DNA of 55,540 bases, from contig CAJJCQ010000016.1 in NCBI GenBank assembly GCA_905182725.1, forward strand, positions 1 to 55,540, written 5' to 3'. Below the pieces are notes generated by a model. The model searched no databases. It was not told the DNA's origin and saw nothing but the letters and a program-made list of their open reading frames with translations. A program made the position numbers and the translations under genes. This document shows positions 4,269 through 19,516 of this stretch, piece by piece (the first letter of the stretch is position 1; each line of letters opens with the position of its first letter). The stretch is from an uncultured Candidatus Poseidoniales archaeon (GTDB taxonomy: Archaea > Thermoplasmatota > Poseidoniia > Poseidoniales > Poseidoniaceae).

Positions 4269-5006
4269 ATGGCCAACATTATCGTCCTCGTTAAACAAGT
4301 ACCTGATACCAATGCTCGCATCGTCCTTTCTGGCGACCGAGTCGACCTTTCTGCTGTCAAGAAAGTGATGAGTCCTTACGATGAATTCGCTGTAGAAACG
4401 GCACTTCAACATCGCGAATCAAGCGGTGGTGAAGTAACGGCAATTACCGTTGGCGGCGCAGGGGCAGACAAAGTATTGAAAGATGCAAAAGCCATTGGTG
4501 TTGACAATATTGTCCGTATTGATTGTGAGACTCCACTCGATTCCAATTCACTCCAATCAATTCTTGCATCCGTCATCTCAAGCCTTAGCGCTGAAGTCGT
4601 CTATTGCGGAAAATCTGCTGCAGATACAGGCGCAGGCTCAACTGGACCTGGACTCGCTGAACGACTCGGCTGGGCTTCTGTTTCAAACACAACAAGTGTT
4701 GAGTTTGGGGAACAACTCTCCGTAGTCACTCCATCTGCTGGAGGAAATGCACGAATCAATGTGCCTCTACCAGCAGTCGTCTCCTGTGATAAGGGTAACA
4801 TCAAGGTTCGAAAGCCAAATGTCAAAGGAATTATGCAAGCAAAGAAGGCCCAAGTCGATGTTCGTAGCGTTGATGTTCCTGCTTCGACCGTTTCGGTCGT
4901 AGCACACAGTATGCCCCCTGCAAAACCTGCAGGCAAATCTTACCAAGGTGGCGCAGCAGCAGCTGAAGTCGCTCAACTCCTCCGGGATGAGGCAAACGTA
5001 ATTTGA
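4269..5006 (+). CDS. etfB: Electron transfer flavoprotein beta subunit
   Basis: MANIIVLVKQVPDTNARI...; start chosen at ATG 4269 inside ORF 4209..5006; adjacent to etfA. Confidence 0.9.
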   Translation: MANIIVLVKQVPDTNARIVLSGDRVDLSAVKKVMSPYDEFAVETALQHRESSGGEVTAITVGGAGADKVLKDAKAIGVDNIVRIDCETPLDSNSLQSILASVISSLSAEVVYCGKSAADTGAGSTGPGLAERLGWASVSNTTSVEFGEQLSVVTPSAGGNARINVPLPAVVSCDKGNIKVRKPNVKGIMQAKKAQVDVRSVDVPASTVSVVAHSMPPAKPAGKSYQGGAAAAEVAQLLRDEANVI

Positions 5007-5007
5007 G

Positions 5008-5949
5008 GTGAAAGAAATGACAGATACTATAGTAATCGCTGAAATCGTCAAGGGTGCAGTCCACCCTACAACTGCTGAACTCATCACTGCGGCTCTCGCA
5101 CTTGGATCTCAACCTGTTGTTGTTGTCCCTTGCACAGACGCAAGTGTTGCTGATGGCGCCTCCCAATTTTCAGGCGCAGCTCGTATTCTTGCTGCAAAAT
5201 CTGATGTGTTCTCAAACTATGATGCTGCAGGATGGGCATCGGCCCTTGATGCAGTGACACCAGCAGGTATCATCATCACCTCGGCCTCTCCACAATCAAA
5301 AGACCTCGCTGCCCGTTTGGCTGCTCGAAGAGGGATTTCGGTCGTACAAGATGTCGTACAAATCGAAGGTGGAAACTTGACTTCACCAATTTATTCTGGT
5401 AAGGCAATGCAAACTGTATCTCTCAGTGGAAATGCAGTCGTCACTGTTCGCCCGAATGTCTTTGCAGCAGCAGCCAGTGATGGTTCAACCGATGTATCGG
5501 TTGTCGACACGACTGGAAACGTCGCTACTGCGGTTCAAGAGTTCATGGCTCGTGCTTCAACACGTCTCGATGTGGCCGAAGCAAACATCATCATCTCCGG
5601 TGGAAGAGGAATGGGCTCTCCAGCAAATTTCTCTCACTTAGAAGCAATTGCTGATACTTTGGGTGCTGCAGTTGGTGCATCTCGTGCAGCAGTTGACACA
5701 TGGGATGACATCCCTCACTCGATGCAAGTTGGTCAAACTGGAAAGACTGTCAATCCGAATCTCTACATCGCTGTCGGAATCTCTGGCGCCATACAACACT
5801 TGGCTGGAATGCGTTCATCGAAGTATATCGTCGCCATTAACAAAGATGCTGACGCACCTATATTCCAACATGCAGATTATGGAATTGTAGCGACTTGGGA
5901 AGAGGCATTGCCTATTCTTCAATCGACACTTTCGACCATGATGGCGTGA
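5008..5949 (+). CDS. etfA: Electron transfer flavoprotein alpha subunit
   Basis: C-terminal FAD-binding region [12 protein letters not shown]...[45 protein letters not shown]. Confidence 0.92.
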
Positions 5950-6754: not shown

Positions 6755-8389
6755 CTATTCAATCAAGATATGCAATGAATCACTCGACCATTGTCCATCA
6801 CGGTCACAAATGCGTAATTCAAAACGATGGCTTCCACGTGGAATCCGAACACGAACCTTAGCGGAAGAAGCAATTTCCTTACCACTACTCTCAATCCAAG
6901 ACCAAGTTTGAATACGATCTTGGGGGTCAAAGGAAGTTGAACCATCAAGGGTAACAATTGCGGAACCATCGGCGTCAGCTTTGAGATGCTGATCTTCACC
7001 AGAAACAGCACGTGGGACAAGTATTTCTCCGATTTCAGTGTTCAATTGCTCGAGGAGATCTTCTGAAGGTAAAAGTGCCATTTTAGTAATTGCATCATCA
7101 AGTTGAGTAAGTAGGTCCTCTGTGTCAATGTCAAGTGCTCCATCTTCAGTCACTTTCGGAGGTTCGCCAAAGTCGCCTTCGAGTGCACTGTGTAATGCTT
7201 CCAAGCCGACGTCGGCTGGTTGTGAGGTTTGCATTGATTTTAATTCTTCTTCTGTGAAAAATTCATTCATTGAATCATCTACTCTATAGAGTTCTTCCGC
7301 TGATAATTGTACCGTTTCCTCAGTCTTTTCAAACCACAAATTAAGTTCTGATGCATCGATTTCAAGAAGTTCCTCATTGAATGAAAACAATCCTATCGGC
7401 TCTATTTCGGTCCAATCATTCTGATCTTCACCCGCAAACAAACATACTGAGCCATCAAGTGAAGCTTCAATAAAATGAGGCATTCCTTGATGTTCAATTT
7501 TCCATTCACGCCCATCTGCGTTCAATCCATAAATGTAAAACCACGATGTTGCGGCAATACATCCATTTCGGAAAAGAAGTGTTTGAATCGGATAAGTGCA
7601 TGAAATTCGTGGTTCGGAGGTATAGGAGGATTGACCAGTAAGGTATTCAGTTACGTGGCCATCAGCAAATCCACAGTAGAGACCTTCGTTTGATGGAATC
7701 GCATGCAATAACTGACTCTTTACATCATCTCGGTGGACCAAGACTTGTTGTTTCAGATCCCAAATTTCGATTTCTAAAACCTCTTCATCTCCTGAAACAA
7801 GTGCATAACCTTCTCTCCCAATGACCAGATGATGATTGACATCTGAACCAAGACACGTGATTGATTCACCTGTTTCTCCACGAATTGGTCTTGACCAGAC
7901 CGTTTGTCCGTTTTGAAGGGCTTGAACTTGACCACTTTCGTGTGCTAAAATTAAGTATTCACCAATGGCTGTAAAGCGTAGGATATCAGAATATGTTGTT
8001 GGTAAATCGAAAGGAGTACCATCATAGCCAAACAGATGTAAACGTCCGAGTCCATCAATGACTGCGAGTTGTGAAGGTAATTGCTGTAATGCAAAACCGC
8101 CCGCTCCAATTTCAACTTGCCATAGGACTTTACCTTCGAGGTCTAAACAGGTAAGGCCATATTCATCATCTAAAACAAATATTTGATTACCACGCAATAT
8201 GGCTTTTCGAATCAATGCTGGTGCTTGCCATGAAGTCGAAGGGGCGAGAACTCCTTCTGAACTTTGAGCGATGAAGAGTTTACCATCACCTTCTGCCCAA
8301 ACAGCGACATCACCACCTATTGACATTGCCAAAGCACTCACCTTTGCTTCAGGTTGGAATGCGATATGCACCGAATGGGTACTGAGCAT
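6755..8389 (-). CDS. PQQ/WD-like beta-propeller protein with C-terminal PKD-like domain
   Basis: Repeated propeller-like blades; C-terminus DADGSAIVTLDGSTSFDPQDRIQTWSWIESSGKE... is PKD-like; no obvious signal peptide. Confidence 0.6.
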   Translation of the reverse strand: MLSTHSVHIAFQPEAKVSALAMSIGGDVAVWAEGDGKLFIAQSSEGVLAPSTSWQAPALIRKAILRGNQIFVLDDEYGLTCLDLEGKVLWQVEIGAGGFALQQLPSQLAVIDGLGRLHLFGYDGTPFDLPTTYSDILRFTAIGEYLILAHESGQVQALQNGQTVWSRPIRGETGESITCLGSDVNHHLVIGREGYALVSGDEEVLEIEIWDLKQQVLVHRDDVKSQLLHAIPSNEGLYCGFADGHVTEYLTGQSSYTSEPRISCTYPIQTLLFRNGCIAATSWFYIYGLNADGREWKIEHQGMPHFIEASLDGSVCLFAGEDQNDWTEIEPIGLFSFNEELLEIDASELNLWFEKTEETVQLSAEELYRVDDSMNEFFTEEELKSMQTSQPADVGLEALHSALEGDFGEPPKVTEDGALDIDTEDLLTQLDDAITKMALLPSEDLLEQLNTEIGEILVPRAVSGEDQHLKADADGSAIVTLDGSTSFDPQDRIQTWSWIESSGKEIASSAKVRVRIPRGSHRFELRICDRDGQWSSDSLHILIE

Positions 8390-8444: not shown

Positions 8445-9373
8445 TCATTCAATCCAAGAAGTTGTATCGGGATGAGGGCGGAACTTACTTGGCGCATTGA
8501 TATGTTGCCACAAAGATGCTTTTTCAGCCACCGTCCACCCACAGAGAGGTTCAAGCGTTGACAAAGGTGTCGTTTTAATTGCGGTTTCTCGTCGTTGAAT
8601 GTGTGGTTTAGCTTGTTCAAGTGTGAGACCAACCACCCCCCAGGCTGGTCGTTGAAACATTTGACCAGATTCATATTTAGTCCGACTACGAACTCCGAGG
8701 AAGGGGTCCCATTTCGAGAGTAAACTCACGAACTCAGGTTTTGAGTCAAGTATTGGAATAATTCGTGAACCACGGCGCATGATGAGAAACGAACTCATCG
8801 CATCTTCCTCGGTTTTCAGCTGAACTAAGACATCGCCTTGAACACCTGTAGGCAATCCACCTGGACCGGTATTCGTATTTCAATCGAAGAAACACTGGCA
8901 GATTCAAGAATAATCTTCACCCACCATTCTGGATTTGATAAGTCGACTGAAAGTGAAGGGTCTCGTTCAATTAATGCTGCACTGAGTGCTCTTGCATAGG
9001 ATTGTGAATCCCACTCACCTTTGGCCCCAAGCCGTTTGATTCGCACCCCAAAGGTTCTTTTTCCACCTACACGGTCATGTCGTTCAAGTAAAAGTTCGGA
9101 GATCAGGCCGGGGTCAAGATTTTCAGATAATTCCACGATACGATCCATCGCCACAATTCCCAATCCATGGCACATTAAATCCTCAACCATTTCTGTTGGA
9201 GCACTGGAATAGATGACATCAAATTCTCTCAATCGGTCTCGAATGAGAGGGACTGAGGAATCTTCAGCAAGCTGTATCAAGTTTTTTCGTAATGAACGTT
9301 GAAACGAACGTCGAACAACTTTGGATTTGAGACCGAACTCCCCAAAACGAAGAATCCAAGATTGTTGTGGCAT
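8445..9373 (-). pseudogene. ThiI-like (NFLD-THUMP + degenerate PP-loop) gene split into two frames
   Basis: ORF 8825..9373 (LRFGEFGLKSKVVRRSFQRSLRKNL + THUMP-like) continues in a -1 frame (ORF 8445..8855) with TGPGGLPTGVQGDVLVQLKTEEDAMSSFLIMRRG, the region after THUMP in ThiI; SGGxDS motif absent. Confidence 0.65.
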
Positions 9374-9382
9374 TGAAAAGCC

Positions 9383-10924
9383 TTAATCAGCTGTATCGTT
9401 GTGCATATCTACGATTTCATCATCTTCACTGGATTCTTCTTTCGCCAAATCATTGCGAGAGTTGAACAGTTTTTCGAGATAGGCATCGTCAATATCACCA
9501 GTGATGTATTCGCCATTGAAACAACTTGTATCAAATCGAGTAGGAGGGTTTTCACCAATTGATGTTGCTTCAATCAAATCTTCAAGCGTTTGGTAAAAGA
9601 GTCGGTCACTGCCAATGATGGTATTGATCTCATCAATGGTTTTTCCATTTGCAATAAATTCAGTGATTGCTGGCATATCGATCCCATAGACATTCGGATG
9701 GCGAACAGGAGGGGCTGCAGATGCAAAGTAGACTTTCTTAGCACCGACATCACGCGCCATCTCAATGATCTGCGCACTGGTTGTACCACGAACGATGGAA
9801 TCGTCAACCAGAAGAATATTTTTACCCGAAAACTCGTGTTCAATAGCATTGAGTTTACGTCGAACGGATTTTTCTCTCAACGCTTGACCTGGCATGATAA
9901 ACGTTCGACCGACGTACCGGTTCTTGACAAAACCTTCACGGTAAGGCACATCGAGTGCATCAGCCATTTGAAGAGCAGCAATTCGTCCTGAATCAGGTAC
10001 TGGAATGACTGCATCTATGTCATGGTCTGGCCATTGTTCAAGAATACGTTTAGCCAATATGTCGCCTTGATTCAAACGGGCATGGTAAACGGAAATTCCA
10101 TCAATCACTGAATCGGGTCGAGCGAAGTAAACATGTTCAAATATACAGGGTGAGGCTTCAACTTCCTCAGAGCATTGGCGATGGAATAAATGGCCTGAAG
10201 TCGAAATGAAAATTGCTTCACCAGGTTGAACATCACGAACAATTTCAAAGCCAAGTGCAGTGATAGCTACCGATTCACTGGCAACCATCCATTCTGTTTC
10301 ATCGCCAATTTCCCGCTTTCCGAAAATGAGAGGGCGGATTCCATGAGGGTCACGGAATGCCAACAGACCGTAGCCAGAAATGATGGAGACGCAGGCATAA
10401 CTTCCCTTCACTCGCTTATGGAGATTCGAAACGGCACCAAAGACGGATTCGATATCCAGATGAGGTGCACCTTCGATTGAAAGGTTGGATGAGTGGGAAG
10501 TCAGTTCAACTGCAAGCATATTGAGTAAGAGTTCTGAATCGCTTGAGGTGTTCATGTGGCGATGGTGATTATCGGTAAGTTGAATTTGAAGTTCTGAGGC
10601 ATTGGTCAAGTTTCCATTGTGCGCAAGTCCAAGACCGTAGGGGGAATTCACGTAGAACGGCTGTGCTTCTGAACGAGAAGAAGAGCCTGCGGTGGGATAT
10701 CGGACATGGCCGATTCCAATATGGCCCTGTAGTCTACGCATGTGCCGGGTGTAAAAAATATCTGAAACGAGGCCTTTGGACTTCCGCAATCGGAATTGAC
10801 CGTCAAAATCAGTCATGATACCGGCAGCATCTTGACCACGATGCTGAAGAACAGTGAGTCCGTCATAGATCAATTGATTGACATGGACATTGTTACGCCC
10901 GACGATTCCAATGATTCCACACAT
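9383..10924 (-). CDS. purF: Amidophosphoribosyltransferase
   Basis: N-terminal [22 protein letters not shown] site [14 protein letters not shown]. Confidence 0.95.
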
Positions 10925-15666: not shown

Positions 15667-15867
15667 ATGGAGATACACCTCAAGGGGCGTGACTATGATG
15701 TCAAAGTAGAACTCGATGGTGAACAAACTGTCCGACAGGCGCTACTTGAGGCTGGAATCCACCCCTCAACAGTCATTGTCAGTTACGATGGGACAATCTT
15801 GCCGCACGCCACTGTATTGTCCCAATCGGTACAACTGTTGGTCATCACCATTTCATCCGGCGGTTAA
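15667..15867 (+). CDS. Small archaeal modifier protein (ubiquitin-like / ThiS-MoaD fold), C-terminal GG
   Basis: MEIHLKGRDYDVKVELDGEQTVRQALLEAGIHPSTVIVSYDGTILPHATVLSQSVQLLVITISSGG; ORF start 15544 overlaps the tRNA, so ATG 15667 preferred. Confidence 0.83.
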   Translation: MEIHLKGRDYDVKVELDGEQTVRQALLEAGIHPSTVIVSYDGTILPHATVLSQSVQLLVITISSGG

Positions 15868-17705
15868 TCTCGTTGTACACGTTCGATGATCTGGAACTTG
15901 GTATTCTGTGAAATATTGCCACGAACTTCTACAGCCCAAGCGTCTAATCCGAGATTAGCGACAACAATTGTATCGCCGATTTGCGCCAAATCATACTGAG
16001 TACCCCAATCATTAGCCCAACCTTCAACTTTCATAGCACCAGTTGCATCCAAAATCATGGCCCCCTTTCGATGCCATTCCTTCCCATTACGTCCAACACC
16101 ACGTTTTTCAAAGCGGTAAATAAGGCGTCCAGCAACGTTCCAACGTGCACGGAATTCCAGCAAGTCCGAGCCGACTTCATCTTCTGAAGCATGTACTACA
16201 CATGCATGTGGATCGACTTTGAGTTCAATCTCGCCCTTCCAATTGGCAGTTGGAATCACTTGGTCGAGTTTCACTCGGTCACCTTTTGCAATGTTTTGAG
16301 GCCACGATGGTTCACCATCTTGGTGTTGATCAACCAAGAGAATCACCTTGGCGAAATGATCACCCTGAGAAATCGTAATTCGAGGGCGATGTCCTTCTTT
16401 GACTCCCATAACACTGAACACTTCGCCAACAAAGGTCATGCGAGGATCAAGGTCACCAAGTGGTGTGATCTCAATATCAGTAGGGGTGCCTGGCAATCGA
16501 ACTAAACCGCCGGATGGAAGGTCATCGTCACCTTGTCCACCCGGACATACAGAGGCCCAATCACAACGGTCACAACGGACTTCATCGGGTGCTTCTATAG
16601 CGATTCCACCATTCTTAAAACCACGCACTGGAGATGGGTTCGGTGGACAGTCCTCAAGCACCGGTGTTGTTTCTCTAATTTGATGCCACATTGATTCAAG
16701 TTCGGATTCCATTTCAGTCATTTCTGAAACGGTAGGACATGCAATCGTCTTAATTGAATTTGCACCGAGGTACCATATTTCAAGCACATCGACCTGTTCC
16801 TTCTTTTCGTGAGTAATCCACCACAACATCGCATACATGCGTAATTGTTCAACGTAATTACCGGAACGGTCACCGCGACCTACGCTGGCTTTCAAGTCAA
16901 CAATATTGATTCGACCATCCCATCGGTAAATTAAATCATATTCACCTTGAAACCAATGTTCGGGATGTATTGCATTCATTGCAAACTTTCCTGCATTTGG
17001 ATCAACAAACCAAGGGCGGGTTATTTCCCAAGCTTCAATCAAACTGACCTCACCGTCTTGTGAAAGAGGATGATTATTGGAAAGTGTGTATCGGCGAGCA
17101 TCAGGTGCTGGCCATTCAGGTCGGTGTCCTCTACGCCATTCTTTCAGACCTGGCCCACCGTTTTGGTCAAGGCAACGCTGAACTTCATTCAAATGAAATT
17201 CAAGGCCATTGATGCACATTTTGAGACAATAATCAGGATTTACTGATTTCCAATCGCCAGCTCTCCGTTCATCTTTTTTCCATTCTTCTTTCATTGAATT
17301 GAGTGCGAGGTGGAGATGGACCTTCAACCGCCCAATTGCCCATTGTCGAAGACTGTCGAGGCTCTGTGGCTGCATGTTCTCAGGTAAAGCCAACAGACGT
17401 TCTGCTGGCCAAGGGTCGAGGCTTGAACGGCTTGGAACTCCATCCTCATCCAGTGGGATGGCTGAAAGAGTGTCCGATGATGCCTTCGAAACCAAAAGCG
17501 CTGGAGATTCCATCAACATACGGCAAATCGCTTCTTCAACGGCTCTACCAACAAATAATACCGGTATTTGCGGCATCTTGAAACGCCGAACTTTCTCGTA
17601 AAACCATAGCCGTGGACACGCGCGATAAGCGTTCACTTGGCTTGCTGAAAGTCGGTTATATGGGCCAACAGAATCTTCAGAGGATGTGACAAGACTTACC
17701 GGCAT
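15864..17705 (-). CDS. PD-(D/E)XK (RecB/Cas4-like) nuclease with Fe-S cysteines and C-terminal OB-like regions
   Basis: YRACPRLWFYEKV; GEYDLIYRWDGRINIVDLKAS; QLRMY; CDRCDWASVC. Confidence 0.78.
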   Translation of the reverse strand: MPVSLVTSSEDSVGPYNRLSASQVNAYRACPRLWFYEKVRRFKMPQIPVLFVGRAVEEAICRMLMESPALLVSKASSDTLSAIPLDEDGVPSRSSLDPWPAERLLALPENMQPQSLDSLRQWAIGRLKVHLHLALNSMKEEWKKDERRAGDWKSVNPDYCLKMCINGLEFHLNEVQRCLDQNGGPGLKEWRRGHRPEWPAPDARRYTLSNNHPLSQDGEVSLIEAWEITRPWFVDPNAGKFAMNAIHPEHWFQGEYDLIYRWDGRINIVDLKASVGRGDRSGNYVEQLRMYAMLWWITHEKKEQVDVLEIWYLGANSIKTIACPTVSEMTEMESELESMWHQIRETTPVLEDCPPNPSPVRGFKNGGIAIEAPDEVRCDRCDWASVCPGGQGDDDLPSGGLVRLPGTPTDIEITPLGDLDPRMTFVGEVFSVMGVKEGHRPRITISQGDHFAKVILLVDQHQDGEPSWPQNIAKGDRVKLDQVIPTANWKGEIELKVDPHACVVHASEDEVGSDLLEFRARWNVAGRLIYRFEKRGVGRNGKEWHRKGAMILDATGAMKVEGWANDWGTQYDLAQIGDTIVVANLGLDAWAVEVRGNISQNTKFQIIERVQRD

Positions 17706-17752
17706 ACCTGTGAGTGTTTTGTCGAATGTTCTTGAACCCTACTCTCTGGAAT

Positions 17753-19516
17753 TCAATCCTTTACTTGCAGACGCGTTTTTCTCGAGTCGATTCGAAGTTG
17801 AGGCAATCCTGCTCTCCAGCCCATTTCGGCAGCCAATAATTTGAGTGTTTGACCTGGCCGTAGTGCTTCCATTTGACCGGTTATACTCGAACCGAAGGAA
17901 GCAACTTCAACAATTGAATGCCCATCCCAAAGGTGGACGTTGAGCATAGTCCATGGTTTGGCATCCAATCGAATCCCAGAACGCTTGCGAACACTGAGAA
18001 CAACGCCTTCGACGTTCGCCCGTGTGCGAAGTAAACCGATGCGAGTTGTTCGTTCTGAAAGAGAAAGTGGTGTCTGTTCAAATTCTTTGGCTGCTTGCGC
18101 AACTGGCATTATTCTAGTTCGCGAATCGACATATAACCGAGGCGCACCACGCCAGACTCCGGGTAATGCGTCTAAAATCACGAGTTCTCCAGTCGGTTGG
18201 TCGTGAAGAAGAGGATATGTGCCTGGTTCGCTCTCTTCAACTGTAATTTGTGCACCTCCGGCAACAAGCATTGCACCCAAAACGGGTTCTCCGAAATGGT
18301 TGGGCAATGGACCCCATGCACCTGTAAACTTTCCTTGAACACTAACTCGAACTGGTATTTCCGACAAAGGTTCACTCGGGACTGTAAGGGGGATTTCTCG
18401 CAATGGAGTGATTTCTGAGAGTAATTCATCGCCAGACCAAGTTCCCTCTTCATCTCGGGCAAGACTGCACCAATGACAACCCGCCGCGCTACCATCACAG
18501 GCCTCACTTGGAAGAACTGGCATGCTTGCCGGCCCTGAACCCATGTTTTGCATTTCAGTGTTGATGCGTGAAAATTCAGAGGTCATTTCAGTGTACTCAG
18601 CAGCTTGTGGGACTTCATAGACAATACGATGAGGTCCATTGAGGTACCAGCCTTCCAAACCGTCGATGCATTGTCCATCGTGGGTTTCATGCCAAAGCCA
18701 GCCATAGAAACGAAGTTGGTGTTGAAGCGATTCTGCAAATTTAGAACTTGGATCGCCAGATTTGATATCGACCAGGCGTATTCGCCCATCCCATCGAAGG
18801 ACAAGATCAAGTTCACCTGCTGCCCAACGTTCTGGATGAAACAAACGTTGAGGTTGGTGGACGCGAGGGTCTTTGGTCCATGGACGAGCAATTTCGAGTG
18901 CTTCATTCCAAGTAACTGCAGAACCGGGAGATTGCCATTGCATGGCTTGTCCTTCAACGGCCCAGGAACGCAACTCATAATTTCGAACCTTATCTGGAAC
19001 AGGGAAAGAGGGTTCATCTCCCCAAGCAGGTGACGGGACCTCGAATGGTGATTCTCCTGCCCTGTAGAGTTCTAAATATGGCCCACCGTTTTCTTGGTAG
19101 CAGGATTCAATTTCTTCAAAGAGGAGCACCAGACCGTTTTCAAGTCGGGCAATAAAAGAATCAATTTCCACATCCTCCCACGAAGTTCCTGGTTCATACC
19201 AAATCCCTTCATCCCAAAGAATACGACCTGCATCGAGGGCTTCTTGTGCAGCCTTTGGAAGCAAAGTGTGCATCCAATCTTTCAATTCCGATAGTGTTTT
19301 AATTTGCATTGTAGGACGTTGCATCATGACTCCACAAAATGCATCTTCAAGGACAATCCCAATCACCTGAGATGGTCGAAGTGGGCCGGAGATTCCGACT
19401 TTTGAACCAAGAAACCACTGCCGTTTGCAGCGAAGGAAAGTCGTCAAACCACTTGCAGAGATTCGTGAGCGAGAACGTCCCAATGGGCCACCAAGTGGAG
19501 GAATTCCTACAGGCAT
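17753..19516 (-). CDS. Paralogous PD-(D/E)XK (RecB/Cas4-like) nuclease
   Basis: FLRCKRQWFLGSKV; GELDLVLRWDGRIRLVDIKSGDPS; QHQLRFY; CDGSAAGCHWC. Confidence 0.77.
   Translation of the reverse strand: MPVGIPPLGGPLGRSRSRISASGLTTFLRCKRQWFLGSKVGISGPLRPSQVIGIVLEDAFCGVMMQRPTMQIKTLSELKDWMHTLLPKAAQEALDAGRILWDEGIWYEPGTSWEDVEIDSFIARLENGLVLLFEEIESCYQENGGPYLELYRAGESPFEVPSPAWGDEPSFPVPDKVRNYELRSWAVEGQAMQWQSPGSAVTWNEALEIARPWTKDPRVHQPQRLFHPERWAAGELDLVLRWDGRIRLVDIKSGDPSSKFAESLQHQLRFYGWLWHETHDGQCIDGLEGWYLNGPHRIVYEVPQAAEYTEMTSEFSRINTEMQNMGSGPASMPVLPSEACDGSAAGCHWCSLARDEEGTWSGDELLSEITPLREIPLTVPSEPLSEIPVRVSVQGKFTGAWGPLPNHFGEPVLGAMLVAGGAQITVEESEPGTYPLLHDQPTGELVILDALPGVWRGAPRLYVDSRTRIMPVAQAAKEFEQTPLSLSERTTRIGLLRTRANVEGVVLSVRKRSGIRLDAKPWTMLNVHLWDGHSIVEVASFGSSITGQMEALRPGQTLKLLAAEMGWRAGLPQLRIDSRKTRLQVKD

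Follow-up and report, generated by a model that had tools for sequence, protein, structure and literature searches.

A single-base deletion divides a ThiI-like gene between two frames

The question raised by this locus is whether a ThiI-like gene (8445-9373) that is divided between two reading frames and carries an eroded PP-loop is a decaying gene, a misassembled gene, or one encoding a protein with a role of its own. The gene lies in the window, the whole 55.5-kb stretch of DNA analysed, which is contig C16 of the Poseidoniales-type MAG G000 (completeness 80.6%). Elsewhere in the window, two adjoining genes of about 600 aa each (15864-19516, minus strand) resemble, on a reading of the sequence, paralogous PD-(D/E)XK/Cas4-type proteins. 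The upstream ORF of the divided gene (Table 1) comprises 182 codons and ends in SSIEIRIPVQVDCLQVFKAMS at a TAG stop (8827-8825), being out of frame past about 8869. In the alternative frame, one base away, the sequence reads NTGPGGLPTGVQGDVLVQLKTEEDAMSSFLIMRRG and continues to 8445; a TGA lies at 8882-8880 in that frame. In a profile search the upstream half matched the ThiI family TIGR00342, and the ThiI_fer and THUMP profiles matched it below threshold. The downstream fragment alone gave no family match in a Pfam/NCBIfam search.

Homologues in same-genus genomes occupy a single frame of some 309-323 codons; they share the linker seen here and have likewise lost SGGxDS. These single-frame carriers include G028 (92% identity over the first part, 90% over the second, the latter measured against the counterpart stretch in an intact 312-codon ORF), G026, G006, G031 and others. 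Alignment of the DNA with these single-ORF relatives demonstrated that the window genome is exactly 1 nt short. The initial annotation had proposed a ThiI-like gene split by a frame change within 8827-8882; the TIGR00342 match and the single-ORF relatives bear this out, and the switch can now be placed at 8868/8869. The relatives have one intact ORF at this locus, and not two independent ORFs.

The annotation had also raised the possibility of a repurposed THUMP protein expressed by frameshifting. The two frames do overlap by ~50 nt with conserved sequence on either side, which speaks for programmed -1 frameshifting to a full protein. However, inspection of the sequence found no X XXY YYZ heptamer in 8827-8882, no interruption of the frame was seen in the close relatives examined, and the shift amounts to one nucleotide deleted in this genome alone. 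We rejected programmed frameshifting, which is very unlikely for this genome; the repurposed THUMP protein stands as a description of the gene, but frameshifting as its means of expression does not.

Table 1. Features of the ThiI-like locus, its neighbours and the partner gene. Positions are those of the window unless a contig is named.
Feature	Position	Strand	Basis or remark
Upstream ORF, NFLD and THUMP of the putative tRNA-binding subunit	8825-9373	-	TIGR00342 2-150, E 8e-14; relatives in frame
Downstream frame, linker and degenerate, shortened PP-loop (AANH) domain of the same putative subunit	8445-8873	-	90% identity to G028
1-nt deletion relative to G028, G026, G006 and G031	8868-8869	-	DNA alignment
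Conserved linker GGLPTGVQG	8835-8861	-	Invariant columns G173-G180 of alignment A1; in TmThiI it touches the PPase domain of the opposite subunit (PMC4041423)
Eroded PP-loop, KTEEDAMS for SGGIDSPV	8793-8816	-	Alignment with relatives
purF-like gene, upstream neighbour	9383-10924	-	Synteny anchor for loss analysis and tree
PQQ_2/BamB-like gene, downstream neighbour	6755-8389	-	Second synteny anchor
Partner gene in G000	C35:5532-6134		C-terminal frameshift; Gly127Val

The eroded PP-loop is conserved in intact homologues

The replacement of SGGxDS and the shortening of the domain, both noted at first reading, are seen here and recur in the in-frame homologues of the relatives. SGGxDS is absent from every member of the THUMP gene family that was aligned, and the region of the catalytic Cys is likewise gone, while the linker GLPxGVQGxV is invariant save for its variable positions. 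The named records matched by profile were mostly MAGs of Poseidoniaceae and Thalassarchaeaceae, and included the MG-II chromosome CM001443. The missing PP-loop and catalytic-Cys region, together with deletion or pseudogenisation of the gene in many relatives, might suggest that the entire protein is a functionless, decaying remnant of ThiI. Against this, the erosion is common to two families of the order and to the phylum, the protein retains many invariant residues, dN/dS between G000 and G028 (pairwise counts) is ~0.07 and equal to that of intact pairs, and losses of the gene are tied to an intact catalytic partner. A functionless remnant is thus very improbable. The eroded PP-loop is, on these alignments, not a sign of decay, and it is kept under strong purifying selection in relatives.

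The intact protein aligns to positions 2-200 of TIGR00342, and its NFLD and THUMP regions are homologous to those of ThiI; throughout the order it falls below the curated cut-off of that family (264.5 bits). An AlphaFold monomer of the G028 protein (pLDDT 87.5) was used in a Foldseek search. The best match, over the whole length, was Pyrococcus horikoshii PH1313 (1VBK), followed by the ThiI proteins of T. maritima and B. anthracis. Profile ranking against structures gave the same leader, with E 1.9e-29 for 1VBK and E 7e-23 for both 2C5S and 4KR6.

A stand-alone catalytic domain accompanies the THUMP gene

When 146 genomes of the order were searched, carriers of the THUMP gene were found to have a second, unlinked gene whose product matches TIGR00342 only over ~171-365, the catalytic domain; the check for this partner covered all but a few of the same-genus THUMP-gene carriers. 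These stand-alone AANH proteins of about 222 aa have an intact SGGIDSP loop, TGENLGQVSSQT, one invariant Cys, and an intact GENLGQVSSQT motif (consensus tested, GENxGQVxSQT). They match the PPase domain of 4KR6/2C5S at E 1e-37, including the PP-loop and the Cys. The CXXC + C motif that defines the [4Fe-4S] subclass of TtuI (PMC5372739), known from archaeal TtuI, is absent from the partner, in which C179 is the sole invariant Cys in alignment A2. Neither the THUMP-gene protein (~310 aa) nor the partner (222 aa) has a C-terminal rhodanese domain or any extra Pfam domain.

The partner locus is flanked by a divergent 4HBT thioesterase gene and by a gene for a large secreted-looking protein. In G000 the latter (L118, about C35:6231-11690) follows the partner gene and encodes 1800 or more residues; it is poorly conserved and remains in place where the partner gene is lost.

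Shared occurrence and joint loss of the two genes

Within the order, 37 of 146 genomes have both genes, two have only the THUMP gene, two only the catalytic gene, and 105 have neither. Thus 37 of the 41 genomes with either gene have both (Fisher P 9e-30, a value that ignores phylogeny). No genome among the 146 encodes a full-length ThiI above the TIGR00342 cut-off. Genome incompleteness is a plausible explanation for the genomes with one gene only, which number four in the order and 15 across the phylum.

In 13 genomes that lack the pair, both neighbourhoods were recovered and both were emptied, as verified by synteny. Where the THUMP gene is lost, the purF-like and PQQ_2/BamB-like genes lie 34-174 nt apart (351 nt in G003) instead of about 990 nt, and the gap at the partner locus shrinks from 768 to 98-299 nt. 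In G003 both loci still contain remnants with stops or frameshifts; in G004, G017 and G020 one locus does. Close to the start of the THUMP gene of G020 (L137) a Trp codon has become TGA, and the loss of ~500 nt inside the gene fuses its N-terminal third in frame to its C-terminal end. On a purF tree the 13 pair-less genomes represent six changes, with five to six independent pairs concordant and none discordant; in a larger genome set, the tree shows at least 13 changes in the presence of the THUMP gene, six of these forced by well-supported branches. The two genes have been lost together at least five to six independent times from conserved neighbourhoods.

Origin of the frameshift in the window genome

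Indels were compared over 67 kb of G000 that is colinear with G028. The window is colinear end to end with contig C30 of G028 at 88% identity, and the ThiI-like gene is the only real gene broken in it when all G028 ORFs of at least 90 codons are compared. The partner gene on C35 is also frameshifted, near its C-terminus, where one base is missing from an A run, and carries Gly127Val in GENLGQ, a near-invariant motif; it is the only broken gene in the 11.7-kb overlap of C35 with G028. For the partner gene, dN/dS between G000 and G028 is 0.06. Taken with the ~0.07 of the THUMP gene, this value indicates that both genes were functional until recently.

These selection measures still fit a working gene, and for that reason we considered an assembly or sequencing error in a gene that is intact in the organism. 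The THUMP gene has a dN/dS as low as that of intact copies and no additional stops, the partner's indel sits in an A homopolymer, and close relatives have the intact gene. Yet the frameshift is the sole one among the genes compared over 55.5 kb, the functionally coupled partner is also frameshifted and carries Gly127Val, and both genes have been cleanly lost from G137, which is closest to the window genome by purF (99%). Two independent assembly errors on precisely these two genes would be a notable coincidence, and we regard an error as possible but doubtful. The frameshift is private to the window genome and probably reflects a recent, coupled inactivation of both halves, leaving the enzyme at the onset of loss, since both genes were frameshifted recently and the closest relative is already without both. 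Decay, as first suggested for this gene, is therefore the most likely account of the frameshift, where the partner is frameshifted and sister lineages have lost both genes, but it does not account for the eroded PP-loop, which is conserved under purifying selection.

A putative two-gene 4-thiouridine synthetase

The gene product is probably the subunit that binds tRNA, without catalytic function, in a two-gene (split) tRNA 4-thiouridine synthetase of the ThiI/TtuI type, and loss of this enzyme is most likely under way in the window genome. We favour this assignment because the erosion is conserved, an intact partner co-occurs with the gene, and both are lost together. In T. maritima ThiI, the NFLD and THUMP domains of one subunit hold the tRNA and U8 is received by the PPase site of the second subunit; the two subunits meet mainly through their PPase domains, and the linker adds a contact between Gly168 and Asp319' (PMC4041423). 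In our alignments Gly168 falls on the conserved GGLP Gly of the THUMP subunit, and Asp319 on the invariant Asp156 of the catalytic subunit. Since the ThiI homodimer acts in trans, the split would divide two roles that were already performed in trans.

The steps that the sequences themselves supply are the motifs, the co-occurrence, the coupled loss and the fold. Beyond them, the THUMP subunit and the partner would form a heterodimer through their AANH folds, the NFLD-THUMP region would grip the acceptor stem and CCA end and place U8 in the active site of the partner, and the partner would adenylate U8 and then transfer sulfur. The s4U8 product and the sulfur donor are predicted in the same way; another thiolation or position, for example s4U9, is possible.

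Alternatively, the THUMP protein could be an adaptor for another tRNA-modifying enzyme, in the way that Tan1/THUMPD1 serves the NAT10 acetyltransferase, and be linked only indirectly to the AANH protein. Stand-alone NFLD-THUMP adaptors exist, as in Tan1-Kre33 (PMC9957541), and the protein lacks catalytic residues. However, it keeps the ThiI-specific linker and an AANH remnant that are both missing from Tan1; its C-terminal half is AANH-like and its fold matches ThiI-type structures, its best structural matches, over the full length, so it is not confined to NFLD and THUMP as the Tan1/THUMPD1 adaptors are. The gene also disappears along with the ThiI catalytic domain and stands head to head with the catalytic gene in the genome G261. 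An adaptor role is unlikely on this evidence, and a subunit of a split ThiI remains the preferred assignment.

Distribution across Thermoplasmatota

The split pair occurs in 100 of 194 Thermoplasmatota genomes and a full-length ThiI in 33; a further 11 have only the THUMP gene, four only the catalytic gene, and 46 neither. The THUMP-subunit PP-loop is eroded in each split-carrying genome that was read. The split-carrying families f17 and f38 encode MCR and are therefore Methanomassiliicoccales-like. Pairs are usually unlinked, and a single adjacent pair was found, in the complete genome G261, where the genes lie head to head (L293 3663-4412, minus strand, and 4479-5360, plus strand) with a 66-bp gap between the frames and adjoin a gene for a PLP enzyme of Cys/Met metabolism.

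G261, which is Methanomassiliicoccales-like, has two THUMP/AANH pairs (L293 3663-5360 and L294/L295). The head-to-head pair also lies beside genes for carbonic anhydrase and another PP-loop-like (SGGFDS) protein, which suggests a second, sulfur-related use. In methanogen genomes (L297 1415-2608 and L299 464-1635) the catalytic AANH gene follows RNA-methylase-like and exosome Csl4-like genes, an RNA-processing neighbourhood. A single origin of the split was supported in the tree when the linker and PP-loop columns were included and was unresolved after their removal, and for this reason is not claimed.

Comparison with known systems

The pair resembles ThiI/TtuI (T. maritima 4KR6, B. anthracis 2C5S) in its NFLD, THUMP, GGLP linker and AANH homology, with the catalytic motifs in the partner; the known homodimer, too, relies on action across its subunits (PMC4041423). 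It differs in having two genes, the window subunit being without PP-loop and catalytic Cys and the partner without NFLD or THUMP. Rhodanese-type ThiI proteins (E. coli, Thermoplasma) have a C-terminal rhodanese domain that is absent from both proteins here.

PH1313 has the same size (307 aa) and the same PP-loop replacement (alignment GILHDELSALAIFLMMKRG). It comes from the Thermococcales, a lineage with several ThiI homologues (PMC9957541), and has no known partner; the THUMP review describes it as ThiI-like, without the conserved residues and of unconfirmed activity (PMC9957541). Descent of PH1313 with the split clade found no support in a quick tree, which placed it nearer full-length ThiI. 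The best NCBIfam match of the partner was NF006222/PRK08349, a 'hypothetical protein' family of stand-alone ThiI-type AANH proteins of about 198 aa; Thermoplasmatota members score under its cut-off. The family carries no assigned function, and a literature search for it returned no paper.

Two-protein tRNA-modifying enzymes offer further parallels. The ADAT2/ADAT3 tRNA deaminase likewise joins a catalytic subunit to a pseudo-enzyme with an NFLD-like tRNA-binding domain (PMC8216470). It is eukaryotic, however, and its catalytic fold and reaction are unrelated. In the Ncs6/Ncs2 pair, Ncs2 is the degenerate member. Ncs6/Ncs2 (Ctu1/Ctu2) also performs PP-loop tRNA 2-thiolation as a two-protein complex (PMC5372739, PMC10067955), but belongs to the TtuA/Ncs6 family, acts at U34 and is Fe-S dependent.

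Implications

We found no published two-gene ThiI, and no report of separate THUMP and PP-loop genes, in the open-access literature (subscription papers were outside the scope of the search). The route to s4U in archaea without an Fe-S-type ThiI is unknown according to a recent review (PMC9957541). We lean towards the view that across most Thermoplasmatota, including Methanomassiliicoccales-like methanogens, s4U in tRNA would be made by an obligate ThiI heterodimer of a tRNA-binding pseudo-enzyme and a bare catalytic domain, a so far unnoticed counterpart of ADAT2/ADAT3, and that marine Poseidoniales repeatedly lose it as a unit, possibly because s4U8 sensitises cells to near-UV light. If true, the two-gene ThiI would close the archaeal s4U gap in a large part of the phylum and suggest a likely function both for the orphan crystal structure PH1313 and for the 'hypothetical' family PRK08349; it would also be a naturally occurring test of the trans-subunit model of ThiI. 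Since marine archaea have lost the pair repeatedly, related species could be compared to test what s4U8 contributes to fitness.
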